Assembly: GCA_028821635.1 (NCBI GenBank)
Contig: JAPPDO010000302.1
Span: 1-10,914, forward strand
DNA: 10,914 bases
From: Ekhidna sp.
GTDB taxonomy: Bacteria > Bacteroidota > Bacteroidia > Cytophagales > Cyclobacteriaceae
Direction: 5' to 3'
Below are positions 1,948 to 10,914 of the stretch, piece by piece. The position numbers were made by a program, and so were the translations under genes. The notes beneath the pieces were generated by a model. The model was not told the DNA's origin, searched no databases, and saw only the letters and a program-made list of their open reading frames with translations. Position 1 is the stretch's first letter. The number at the start of each line of letters is the position of its first letter.

Positions 1948-4900
1948 TTGGCTACAATTAAAAACGGGAGAATCAACTTTTCTTCCATTAAATTAGTGAT
2001 AGATTATCCAGATTTTCTGGATGTCCAACTAAAATCGTTTATTGACTTTTTCCAGTTAGATACCCCCGCAGAGAGAAAAGAGGGTGAAGGACTTTACAAG
2101 GTATTTATGGAAAACTTTCCAATTACCGATTCTAGGGAGAATTTTGTGCTGGAGTTCGTGGATTACACCGTTGATCCATCAAAATATAGCATTCAGGAGT
2201 GCATTGAAAGAGGATTAACATACTCTGTTCCTTTAAAGGCTAAACTAAGACTTCTTTGCAATGATGAAGAAAATGAGGATTTTGAGACAATCGAACAAGA
2301 GGTATTTTTAGGAAACATACCCTACATGACCGAGAAGGGGTCTTTTATAATCAACGGAGCGGAAAGGGTAATTGTGTCTCAGCTTCACAGATCGCCCGGA
2401 GTTTTCTTTGCACACAGCAAGCATACAAATGGCACATTACTATACAGTGCAAGAATTATTCCCTTTAGAGGATCATGGATTGAATTTGCTACCGACGTTA
2501 ATAACGTTATGTATGCTTATATTGATCGAAAAAAGAAATTTCCGATTACAACACTTTTAAGGTCTATTGGATATGGATCTGATAAAGAAATCTTAGACCT
2601 ATTTGGTTTATCTGAAGAAGTTGAGGCTACCGAGAAGGAGCTAAAGAAGGCCGCTGGAAGAAGGTTAGCCGCAAGGGTTCTGAGAACATGGACAGAAGAT
2701 TTCGTGGATGAAGATACCGGAGAGGTGGTTTCCATTGATAGAAATGAGGTAGTTCTTGAAAGGGATGGTATTATAGATGAAGATGATATCGCCATAATCC
2801 TTAATTCTGGTGCCAAATCAGTGATTCTACACAGAAAGGATGTGAATATTGCGGAGTACTCAATCATTTATAATACACTTCAAAAAGACAATTCAAACTC
2901 AGAGAAAGAAGCCGTCGAGCAGATTTACCGACAGCTAAGAAATACAGATGCCCCTGACGAACAAACGGCAAGAGATATTATTACCAGTCTCTTCTTCTCC
3001 GACAAGAGATATGATTTAGGTGAAGTTGGCAGATACAGAATCAACAAGAAACTGAACATGGATAAAGATTGGGATAGAAGAGTACTGTCCACTGAAGATA
3101 TTATCCTTATCATTAAATACCTCATCAGTTTAATCAATAGTAAAACTGTAATTGATGACATTGACCATTTGAGTAATAGAAGAGTTAGAACGGTTGGAGA
3201 GCAGTTGTATTCTGAATTTGGCACTGGCCTTTCCAGAATGGCTCGAACCATAAAAGAGCGAATGAACGTCCGCGATAATGAAGACTTTAAACCAGTTGAT
3301 TTGATCAATGCAAGAACACTCTCCTCGGTGATCAATTCCTTCTTTGGCACCAACCAATTGTCCCAATTCATGGATCAAACTAATCCATTAGCAGAAGTAA
3401 CACACAAAAGAAGGATGTCAGCCTTAGGCCCCGGAGGTCTATCGAGAGAACGAGCAGGTTTTGAAGTACGAGATGTTCACTACACGCACTATGGCCGGCT
3501 TTGCACTATCGAAACGCCGGAAGGTCCTAACATTGGTTTAATCTCTTCACTTTGTGTTCACGCAAAAGTGAACCAAATGGGATTTATTGAGACCCCATAC
3601 AGAGAAGTGGCCCGAGGGAAGGTGGATATGTCGGGTAATGTGAAATACCTAACGGCCGAAGAAGAAGACACATACAACATTGCGCAGGCAAATGCGCCAC
3701 TCTCTGATAAGGGTAAATTTCTGAATAATAAAGTTAAAGCACGCTTTGAAGGCGACTTCCCGCTTTGTGAAGACGATAAAATAAGCTACATGGACGTAGC
3801 ACCCAACCAAATTGTATCCGTTGCAGCATCAATGATCCCATTCCTTGAGCATGATGACGCAAACAGGGCCTTGATGGGATCAAACATGCAGCGTCAAGCC
3901 GTCCCGTTAATGAGACCTCAGGCTCCTATCGTCGGAACAGGGCTGGAAAGAAGGGTCGCACTTGATTCAAGATCGTTAATTAGAGCGGAAGGCTCCGGAG
4001 TAATTGATTACGTAGATGCGAATAAGATCATAGCAAGTTATGTTCTTGCTGAAGAGGAGGAAATCACTTCATTCAATAAGTCCTCAGTGACCTACGACTT
4101 GGTTAAATTTAGAAGAACCAACCAAGATACTTGTATTAACCTTAAGCCAATAGTAAAGAAGGGGGATAAGGTTCAGAAAGGTCAGCCATTATGCGAAGGT
4201 TTTGCAACAGAAAATGGGGAGTTGGCACTGGGGATCAATATGAAAGTGGCATTTATGCCTTGGCAAGGATACAACTTTGAGGATGCAATTGTAATCTCAG
4301 AAAGAGTAGTCAGAGAAGATATTTTTACTTCAATTCACGTTGAAGAATTTGAACTTGAGGTAAGAGATACGAAAAGAGGTGAAGAGGAATTTACGAGTGA
4401 GATTCCTAACGTTTCAGAAGAGGCAGTTAAAAACCTTGATGAAAATGGAATCATCCACATTGGAGCAGAGATTAAAGAAGGAGACATCCTGATCGGTAAG
4501 ATTACTCCAAAAGGAGAGTCAGACCCAACGCCGGAGGAGAAGCTTTTAAGAGCAATATTTGGTGACAAGGCTGGTGACGTGAAAGATGCTTCTTTGAAAG
4601 CTCCACCATCCCTGAAAGGGATTGTGATTGACACTAAACTCTTTTCCAGGCCTAAGAAGGACAAGGATGTAAGAGCCAAAGCCAAGAAAGAGGTTGAACT
4701 TCTTAAAAATAAATATAGCCAAAAGCTCACTGAAGCTAGAGAAACCATGGTTGAAAAATTGACAAAACTTCTGGAAGGAAAGAATTGTCAGGGAATTAAG
4801 CACAAATTTGGTGAGCAAGTGATGAGCAAAGGTGTCAAGTTCTCCAGGAAAAACATTGAAGCTAACCTTTTCCCCCCCGAGAACAAGTATAGAGATGAAA

Positions 4901-5790
4901 GCAACTACAACGTTCCTGAAGAAGCAAACCTCATTTCTGACTTAATCATTGAGGATTGGACAGGAGATGAATATACAGATGCTCTAATCCTTAAAATGGT
5001 TAAAAATTATATTGGGCACAGAAATAATATTTCAGGTTTATTCAAGAGGGAAAGATTCACACTGGAAGTAGGGGACGAATTGCCTGCGGGCATTGTGAAG
5101 CTCGCAAAAGTCTACATTGCCAAGAAGCGTAAATTGAAAGTGGGCGATAAAATGGCAGGACGACATGGCAATAAAGGTGTAGTAGCGAAAATTGTCAGAG
5201 AAGAAGACATGCCATTCAGTGAAGATGGAACACCTGTTGATATTGTATTGAATCCGCTAGGTGTACCTTCCAGAATGAATATAGGTCAGATTTATGAGAC
5301 CGTTCTTGGATGGGCCGGCATGAGGCTGGAAAAGAAATACGCTACTCCAATTTTTGATGGAGCCACTGAAGATGAAGTTCAGAACGAATTGAAAGAGGCC
5401 GGATTGCCAAACTTTGGCCGCACTCACTTGTACGATGGGCTAACAGGCGAAAGATTTGATCAACTAGTCACGGTTGGCGTAATATATATGTTAAAATTAG
5501 GCCACCTTGTTGATGACAAGATGCACGCAAGAAGTATTGGGCCTTACTCACTTATCACGCAGCAGCCACTTGGAGGTAAAGCTCAATTTGGAGGTCAGCG
5601 TTTCGGAGAGATGGAGGTATGGGCACTTGAAGCCTTTGGTGCAGCTAATGTTCTTCAAGAAATTCTCACAATAAAATCAGATGATGTGATTGGAAGAGCG
5701 AAAGCTTATGAAGCTATTGTTAAAGGAGAGAATATGAACAAGCCAAACATACCCGAATCGTTCAATGTATTGATCCATGAACTGAGATGA
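1948..5790 (+). CDS. rpoB: DNA-directed RNA polymerase subunit beta (TTG start; stops at a TGA inside the conserved tail)
   Basis: Beta subunit of the core RNA polymerase, 1280 residues as read. The TTG start is the only upstream choice: an in-frame TAA lies at 1942-1944, and the peptide from TTG ([11 protein letters not shown], then YPDFLDVQ) is the normal N-terminus. The rifampicin pocket at residues about 470-493 ([22 protein letters not shown]) keeps Q473, D476, H486, R489 and S491, so no common resistance change is seen. GYNFEDA lies at 774-780, and the active-centre KMAGRHGNK at 1068-1076 has both lysines. Residues about 900-1045 contain a charged, coiled-coil-like lineage insert. The C-terminus reads [12 protein letters not shown] and then TGA, where relatives continue with Gly or Ser. 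The same frame then encodes eight tail-like residues to a TAA at 5815-5817, so the ancestral protein was probably 1289 residues. Confidence 0.98.
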
Positions 5791-5817
5791 TTAGCACTTG
5801 AAATTACTTTAGACTAA
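5788..5817 (+). other. Displaced rpoB 3' end: TGA followed by in-frame conserved tail codons
   Basis: After the TGA at 5788-5790 the rpoB frame reads LALEITLD and then TAA (5815-5817). Bacteroidota RpoB proteins typically end in ELRGLxLxxxL(D/E), and E. coli ends EIRSLGINIELEDE. The TGA therefore sits at the Gly/Ser position and differs by one base from GGA. What follows looks like the original tail, not random intergenic sequence. Whether these codons are translated cannot be decided from the sequence. Confidence 0.75.
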
Positions 5818-5831
5818 AATTTAAATAACTA

Positions 5832-5855
5832 TCCTCTTGAACAGTAGCGAGAGGA
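5832..5855 (+). promoter_or_regulatory. rpoB-rpoC intercistronic RNA hairpin
   Basis: A continuous 8-bp stem is formed by TCCTCTTG (5832-5839) and CGAGAGGA (5848-5855) with one G-U pair. The loop has 8 nt (AACAGTAG). It lies 15 bp upstream of the rpoC ATG and no T-run follows, so it is not an intrinsic terminator. It may influence processing or rpoC translation initiation; that role is inferred from position only. Confidence 0.4.
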
Positions 5856-5870
5856 CTTACTGATACAAAT

Positions 5871-8800
5871 ATGGCGTTTAGAAAAAATAAAAAAATCCAT
5901 AACGAATTCTCAAGAGTTATCACCAGTCTGGCTTCTCCGGAGTCTATTCTGGAAGGCTCATACGGGGAGGTGACACAGCCTGAAACCATCAACTACAGGA
6001 CATACAAGCCTGAGATGGGTGGTCTTTTCTGCGAAAGAATCTTTGGTCCGGTTAAAGATTGGGAGTGTCATTGCGGCAAGTATAAAAGGATCAGATATAA
6101 AGGAATTATCTGCGATAGATGTGGGGTTGAAGTCACTGAGAAGAAAGTAAGGAGAGAGAGAATGGGGCATATCGAATTGGTAGTCCCTGTGGCCCACATT
6201 TGGTATTTTAAATCTTTGCCAAATAAGATTGGATACCTTTTAGGAATTCCTACTAAGAAATTAGATCAAATCATCTACTACGAAAGATACATTGTGATTC
6301 AGCCCGGAGTTAAGGAAGAAGATGGGGTTTCTAAATTAGACTTTCTGACCGAAGAGGAGTACTTGGATATTTTAGATAAACTTCCAAGAGAAAACGAGAT
6401 GTTGGATGATGATGATCCAAACAAGTTCATCGCAAAAATGGGTGCTGACGCACTTAAAATGCTCCTAGCAAGGACCCAATTAGATGAACTCTCTTACGAA
6501 TTGAGGCACCAGGCCGCAACGGATACTTCTCAGCAGAGAAAAGCAGAAGCACTAAAAAGACTTCGAGTAGTAGAAGCATTTAGAGACGCTAAAACAAGAA
6601 TTGAGAACAAGCCGGAATGGATGATAGTGAAGATGGTTCCCGTGATTCCTCCGGAATTGCGCCCGCTGGTTCCTTTAGATGGAGGCCGATTTGCTACCTC
6701 CGACTTGAATGACCTTTACAGGAGGGTTATCATCAGAAATAATCGCCTTAAAAGACTTATTGACATAAAAGCACCGGAGGTAATCCTTAGAAATGAGAAA
6801 AGAATGCTTCAGGAAGCCGTTGACTCATTATTCGACAATTCAAGAAAAGTCAATGCAGTAAGATCTGACGGTAACAGAGCACTCAAATCTTTGAGTGATA
6901 TGCTCAAAGGAAAGCAAGGTCGATTCCGTCAAAATCTACTTGGAAAGCGAGTTGACTATTCCGGTCGGTCTGTAATCGTTGTGGGTCCGGAATTGAAAAT
7001 GCATGAGTGTGGACTTCCCAAGAATATGGCTGCCGAGCTTTTCAAACCCTTCATTATCAGAAAGCTAATAGAGAGAGGTATTGTTAAGACGGTCAAGTCA
7101 GCTAAAAAAATCGTTGATAGAAAAGATTCTGTAATTTGGGACATCCTCGAGAACGTGTTAAAAGGACATCCTGTGCTGCTTAACAGGGCCCCCACACTCC
7201 ACAGATTAGGTATTCAGGCATTTCAGCCCAAATTAATCGAGGGTAAGGCAATTCAGTTACATCCACTTGCTTGTACTGCATTCAATGCTGACTTTGACGG
7301 TGATCAGATGGCTGTTCACGTGCCGCTTGGTCATGAAGCAATTCTGGAAGCCTCTCTGTTAATGTTCTCATCTCACAATATCTTAAATCCGGCAAATGGG
7401 GCACCGATTGCAGTACCTTCACAGGATATGGTCTTAGGCCTTTATTACATTACAAAAGGAAGAAGGAGTATAGAAAAAGAGCAAGTCCCGGGAGAAGGTA
7501 AGATTTTCTATTCTCATGAAGAAGTAATTATAGCACTGAACGAAAAGCAAATTTCTCAGCATGCCTATATTAAGTTAAGAACTAAAGTAAGAAATGAGAA
7601 TGGCGAGCTTGAGAGTAAAATTATTGAAACAGTCGCAGGCAGGGTTCTTTTTAATGAAGCTGTACCGGAGAAAGTCGGCTATTTAAATGAGCTTTTAACC
7701 AAGAAAAAGCTTCAGAAGATCATCGCTAATGTCTTCAAAATTTCAGGAATGGCAAGAACTGCACACTTCCTAGACAATATAAAAGATCTTGGATTTAAAA
7801 TGGCCTATCAGGGAGGTCTCTCCATGGGACTGGATAACATCGCAATTCCTGAAGAAAAAGAGAAACTAATAGCACAAGCTAAGGAAGAAGTAGACGGCGT
7901 ATGGCAAAACTATTGGACAGGTCTCATCACAGATAATGAAAGGTATAATCAGGTTATTGACATCTGGACAAGAACCAATACCCAATTAACAAACTCTCTG
8001 ATGACTCAGATGGAGGAGGACGATCAAGGCTTTAACTCGATCTATATGATGATGCACTCAGGTGCAAGAGGATCAAGGGAGCAAATTCGTCAACTGGGCG
8101 GCATGAGAGGATTGATGGCAAAACCTCAGAAAAATCTCCAAGGATCCATCGGAGAGATCATTGAAAATCCAATTCTTTCAAACTTTAAAGAAGGATTGGA
8201 CGTAATTGAATACTTCATTTCAACTCACGGTGCCAGAAAAGGACTTGCGGACACAGCACTTAAAACTGCTGATGCAGGTTATTTAACAAGAAGGCTTGTG
8301 GACGTTGCACAGGATGTTGTAATTAATGAAGAAGACTGTGGAACACTAAGAGGCCTCTCTGTTTCAGCCTTGAAGGATAATGAAGAAATTGTTGAAGCTC
8401 TCTCTGAAAGAATCCTTGGAAGGGTATCTGTACATGACATTTATGATCCAATTTCTGATAAATTAATTATTGAATCCGGGCAAGAGTTCTCAGAAGAGAT
8501 TGCCGACCACATAGACAACTCAGCAATTGATAAAGTAGAGATTAGATCAGTATTAATATGTGAAACTCATCAGGGAGTCTGTTCAAAGTGCTATGGTAGA
8601 AACCTTTCCACCGGAAAGATGTCGCATACAGGAGAGGCAGTCGGAGTAATTGCTGCCCAGTCAATAGGTGAGCCCGGCACTCAGCTTACTTTAAGAACTT
8701 TCCACGTAGGAGGCACTGCATCCAACATCGCCGTAGATGCGAATATTAAAGCAAAATTTGATGGTGTCATTGAATTTGATGAATTGAGAACCGTAAAGTC

Positions 8801-10821: not shown

Positions 10822-10914
<93 letters not shown>

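Follow-up and report, generated by a model that had tools for sequence, protein, structure and literature searches.

A private in-frame TGA near the end of rpoB in an Ekhidna sp. draft genome most probably reflects an isolated mutation or a mistake in the sequence

UGA is read as glycine in the Gracilibacteria and SR1. E. coli carrying an rpoB frameshift can reportedly live by intrinsic suppression (PMC7022156). For stop codons in E. coli, passages of a reporter study (PMC11126739) describe TGA as the leakiest stop, a T after the stop as strengthening termination, a G before the stop as accompanying more readthrough, and Trp as the residue almost always inserted at TGA. In parts of a further report, four-pair anticodon stems are tied to UGA reading (PMC13092985). 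Sections of a survey of bacterial in-frame stops under purifying selection present such stops as widespread and short-lived (Belinky et al., 2021, PMC7918605). A literature search on truncation of the RpoB tail, the beta tail and clamp, Bacteroidota polymerase structures and fused rpoB-rpoC returned nothing directly usable, most subscription journals lying outside its reach.

The locus compared here with these systems lies in the window, the whole stretch of DNA that was analyzed (10,914 nucleotides), which is contig C188 of a draft genome (G000; 2.65 Mb, 456 contigs, 95.29% complete). In the window, rpoB and rpoC lie together with genes for ribosomal proteins and a small ORF. Its best match among the named-collection loci kept was Fulvivirga kasyanovii (82% in the best segment), which points to a bacterium of the Cytophagales, and the best PDB matches of the rpoB product were RNA polymerase beta chains. 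The following features make up rpoB and its end.

1948-5790, + strand: rpoB, an ORF that begins at a TTG and reaches the early TGA after 1280 codons; RpoB relatives aligned over its full length
5788-5790, + strand: in-frame TGA at a conserved Gly codon, which is GGN in 105 of 105 other readable tails
5791-5814, + strand: eight tail codons, LALEITLD, untranslated if the TGA terminates
5815-5817, + strand: TAA, the stop position of close relatives, from the reading of the frame and the relatives' tails

The 1280-residue frame stops nine codons before the usual end (1289), in a gene that is otherwise intact and of high identity; the codon difference is private to this assembly. A reading of the frame at 5788-5817 gave ELR-TGA-LALEITLD-TAA, exactly as an earlier sequence-only reading had described it. 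That reading had also pointed out that no other complete stop in the window is a TGA, and this was correct, since the others are five TAA and one TAG. The rarity carries no information as a clue, for TGA is a frequent stop in the sampled remainder of the genome. The TTG start at 1948 was considered as a second lesion and rejected: TTG-GC stood at the rpoB start position in 20 relatives among the matches listed (29 loci scanned, of which the motif missed 9).

First, the codon equivalent to the TGA was examined in other genomes. It was a Gly codon (GGN) in all 105 loci outside the window with a readable tail, and the claim that the TGA replaces a conserved glycine was thereby confirmed. The 105 loci comprise 111 rows, less eight that duplicate others (L032-L038, L160), together with L110 and L118; six loci whose sequence stops short of the tail (L011, L039, L048, L069, L107, L111) were left uncounted, and genome G001 supplies two of the tails. 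In none of the tails read does a relative end naturally at ELR. A second rpoB piece in G001 (L040, on contig C110), 68% identical, is perhaps bin contamination.

The genus search (10 genomes) found the stop only in G000, two of the genomes being represented by a fragment without the tail. In the order sample, rpoB was matched in 141 of 148 genomes, 140 of which reached the tail, and an internal stop was present only in G000. The family sample gave matches in 361 of 390 genomes, with a stop only in G000 among the matches listed, and the class sample in 142 of 149, with stops among the matches listed only in G000, G652 and G653. G652 (L271) has a TGA in the middle of rpoB with good frame on both sides, and its two genus mates in the sample lack it. 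In G653 (L272), two adjacent stops occupy the 5' end of the match and precede an open stretch of 1231 codons, and this candidate was set aside. G437, whose match ends at 1276, and G647 were rejected as natural truncations because the contig ends there in each case. In the class sample, rpoB was also seen in two or three neighbouring pieces in G582, G614 and G550.

A degenerate pattern of ELR, then TAA, TAG, TGA or TGG, then LALE.T was also searched for in one genome per species from 84,980 species. The scan, which covers LALE-type tails on contigs of at least 3,000 bases and may omit the window's own genome, gave no match, and thus no relative with a conserved stop of the kind that functional readthrough would predict. 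The window itself matched the pattern, the Gly version matched 35 of 40 loci, and 200 shuffles of the window gave no match to the stop-plus-tail pattern.

The early rpoB stop most probably reflects an isolated mutation or a mistake in the sequence and not a new reading of the code. Three options had been offered from the sequence alone, namely a tolerated nonsense mutation, a base error and UGA readthrough; the first of these is now the best supported, and the last gained no support. We give about an even chance to a genuine nonsense substitution, private to this genome, by which RpoB loses nine residues; this figure and those for the other three readings are judgements and not computed values. 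Such a substitution at the conserved glycine codon would end RpoB nine residues early, ordinary RF2 would terminate at the TGA, and the 1280-residue beta subunit would be used. A fast-changing lineage with changes in the adjoining part of beta-prime could tolerate the loss of the tail.

Several results favor the private nonsense substitution. The codon difference is private and sits in an intact gene, TGA is a normal stop in this genome, and RF2 is present. The stop comes 9 codons short of the end of the 1289, in the region where a truncation has the best prospect of being tolerated, and 84 compared genes yielded no other clean nonsense lesion. RpoB and RpoC also carry private changes. In the genus set, private RpoB differences numbered 35 in G000 (stop included), 14-15 in G009, the closest relative, and 9 in L008. 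At 470 near-invariant RpoB columns among 110 sequences, G000 showed three deviations (stop included) and seven congeners none; four other sequences had more than three deviations and four others also had three. Transitions made up 31 of the 40 private amino-acid-changing base differences in G000 rpoB, a predominance that natural substitution also shows, and the excess of G>T changes that was looked for among them was not seen (three of 40). Against these results stand the invariance of the glycine in every other tail read, the fragmented assembly and the post hoc nature of the beta-prime test. Since the glycine is invariant in those tails and no similar truncation was found among the genomes and listed matches compared, a real loss of the tail must be very rare.

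The N-terminus of beta-prime was examined because the RpoB tail presumably lies beside it in the clamp of the RNA polymerase structure. The part of rpoC concerned is as follows.

5871-5975, + strand: first 35 rpoC codons, holding five of the ten private changes found within the first 430 codons

In the first 430 residues of RpoC, 10 of 406 genus-invariant positions were changed only in G000, and five of these ten fell in the first 35 residues (hypergeometric P 0.0004; 95 sequences). When only positions that vary across the sample were counted, P was 0.004, 0.004 and 0.065 at three cut-offs, and weighting by entropy gave P 0.017. The test was chosen after the sequences had been seen, and one adjusted version (P 0.065) was not significant. 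The seven congeners jointly had one of seven private RpoC changes in the first 35 residues. All ten G000-private positions vary across the phylum, and near-invariant columns include none of them. The clustering is suggestive and is not what an error at 5788 would lead one to expect. The codon difference, its restriction to G000 among the genomes compared, the use of TGA as a stop and the clustered beta-prime changes are direct observations; that the base is real, that the short protein would work, and that the beta-prime changes may be connected with the stop are inferences.

Between the two genes lies a further element.

5832-5855, + strand: small hairpin in the rpoB-rpoC gap, with a stem of 8 pairs, predicted in many relatives and not specific to this genome

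In the rpoB-rpoC intergenic region (5818-5870 in the window and the corresponding place in L002-L030), the fold z was below -2 in 19 of 29 loci (100 mononucleotide shuffles per locus), with slight conservation of its sequence across loci. The hairpin might serve in attenuation or in processing.

A strong rival to the private nonsense substitution, and a distinct possibility, is that in a metagenome bin of thin coverage the base was miscalled or misassembled or comes from a consensus of mixed strains; the cells would then make a normal RpoB of 1289 residues. The draft is fragmented, with contigs as short as 2,001 bases among its 456, and the residue is invariant elsewhere (105 of 105 Gly). The mid-rpoB TGA of G652, absent from both genus mates, is most easily explained as an error, and it indicates that such lesions occur in bin data of this kind. 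Three contig ends, that of the window among them, carry artefactual stretches of 50-51 G, which point the same way. However, for an error placed at random the probability of hitting one of the last nine codons is 0.7% (9 in 1289), whereas a real, tolerated stop is expected in the tail, which weighs toward mutation. The lack of a G>T excess (three of 40) also argues against an error, and a mistake at 5788 would not predict the beta-prime cluster.

The comparison with the sibling genome G009 bears on the same question. When 84 likely G009 genes (28,712 codons) were compared with the G000 stretches, five internal stops were found, the rpoB TGA among them. Of the other four, two were near the start of one alignment, one was four codons from a gene end, and one was in a frameshifted gene that looks decayed. 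There were two frameshift-like cases in this comparison, the second in a different gene from the internal stop. Run in reverse on 77 genes (26,894 codons), the comparison turned up a single stop, close to a 3' end, and one frameshift-like case. The rpoB TGA was thus the only clean nonsense lesion of G000 in the 84 genes compared, a result that still allows a few errors per genome.

In the last part of the window, 10822-10914, a start-like ATGAAAAAGCTG... frame is followed immediately by 51 G up to the contig end, which for that reason is not to be trusted. Two more sampled G000 contigs, L169 and L248, end in 51 and 50 G. The run at the window end probably arose when the assembly looped on a genuine G tract close to a start. 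Runs of at least 9 G or C were also seen in G009 (33 in 577,606 bases, against 8 in 621,241 bases of G000), for example at L141, L145, L146, L149, L150, L152, L155, L156, L158, L228, L237 and L241. By their flanks, 12 and 8 of the 33 belong to two repeated cassettes, in which the tract coincides with the start codon, or follows it closely, in ORFs whose beginnings resemble those of lipoproteins or secretion signals. Of 13 start-proximal tracts in G009, two leave the frame open in their present form and the rest run into an early stop; G/C tracts also contain several scaffold gaps and contig ends. To judge from the sequences, the tract ORFs look like a family of slipped-strand, phase-variable surface proteins.

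We then analyzed how UGA is decoded in this genome. The G000 sample consisted of 81 stretches (621,241 bases, window included), in which the 423 likely genes, defined as ORFs of at least 100 codons after removal of overlapping shadows and not as annotated genes, end in TAA (237), TGA (114) or TAG (72). Likely genes defined in this way in the G009 stretches numbered 429 and end in TAA (245), TGA (117) or TAG (67). The prfB gene, encoding RF2, scored 473.7 bits in G000 (cut-off 370), and a second, weaker match was below the cut-off. At the 5' end of prfB, a short frame runs into CTT-TGA just before the main frame, an arrangement that we take to be the RF2 autoregulatory frameshift. The 24 tRNA matches found include tRNA-Trp(CCA) and tRNA-Gly(TCC); none of the 24, an incomplete set from 150 of 166 candidates scored, has a TCA anticodon. 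The anticodon stem of tRNA-Trp has five standard pairs, the outermost being G-U. None of the four tRNA-Sec matches in G000 was above the RF01852 cut-off, and all four coincide with ordinary tRNAs. The genetic code of G000 thus appears to be standard. A suppressor tRNA was rejected since none of the 24 tRNAs found reads UGA, and a selenocysteine UGA was rejected since no tRNA-Sec was above the cut-off.

Functional readthrough at a leaky TGA, which would yield a mixture of 1280- and 1289-residue RpoB with Trp at the stop in E. coli terms, is possible and in our judgement decidedly unlikely. The tail is intact, with seven of eight codons identical to those of G009 and one silent difference, and its undecayed state had been read from the sequence as a sign of a recent event, an error or continued decoding. 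That argument is weak: 14.6% of all 8-codon rpoB windows are at least as similar to G009 as the tail, eight codons are too few to tell decay, and the intactness is uninformative about readthrough. An intact tail is in any case no evidence of decoding, because in-frame stops under purifying selection are reported to be widespread but short-lived. Their being widespread, in the sections of Belinky et al. (2021, PMC7918605) cited above, also speaks for readthrough, as do the leakiness of TGA in the passages of the reporter study (PMC11126739) and two G among the five bases before the rpoB TGA. The reported survival of E. coli with an rpoB frameshift by intrinsic suppression counts on the same side. 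The base after the TGA, however, is T, which strengthens termination in the same E. coli reporters and is not a leaky 3' context; the two upstream G point weakly the other way. RF2 is present, no suppressor tRNA was seen in the incomplete set of 24, and tRNA-Trp is ordinary, with a CCA anticodon and a five-pair stem. The stop is private to one genome, so that no conservation hints at its use. The readthrough option offered earlier thus drew no positive support from the ordinary use of TGA stops, RF2, the tRNAs or the T at +4.

Reassignment of UGA to a sense codon such as Gly, to which one in-frame TGA at a Gly position is the only pointer, has next to no chance and is already refuted by the 114 TGA stops among the 423 likely genes of the 621,241 bases sampled, by a prfB of 473.7 bits (cut-off 370) seemingly with its own TGA frameshift site, and by the lack of a TCA anticodon among 24 tRNAs.

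Returning to the private nonsense substitution, if the base is real the window amounts to a natural experiment on the need for the conserved RpoB tail, with candidate compensating sites in the beta-prime N-terminus. It is rather unlikely, though conceivable, that in this bacterium the polymerase beta subunit has lost a C-terminal tail found invariant elsewhere and that the neighbouring beta-prime N-terminus has changed in compensation, or, more boldly, that a leaky UGA sets the ratio of two polymerase forms. If the base is an error, the case is a warning against reading lone stop codons in metagenome bins as biology.

The window rpoB resembles the Gracilibacteria and SR1 in having TGA at a Gly position; unlike in those groups, TGA is here a common stop, RF2 is present, and tRNA-Gly(UCA) was not found among the tRNAs recovered. 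It shares its stop codon with the leaky E. coli UGA reporters, in which UGA is the leakiest stop, but differs from them, as described in passages of PMC11126739, in the T that follows, a termination-strengthening base. The closest likeness in form is to the stops treated in sections of Belinky et al. (2021, PMC7918605): a single stop, followed by undamaged sequence, in a gene that purifying selection otherwise maintains. Those stops are short-lived, on the scale of population polymorphism, and the focus there is on stops in at least two genomes, which limits artefacts, whereas the present stop is in one draft genome. Unlike the cases in those sections, the stop in the window lies near the end of an essential gene.
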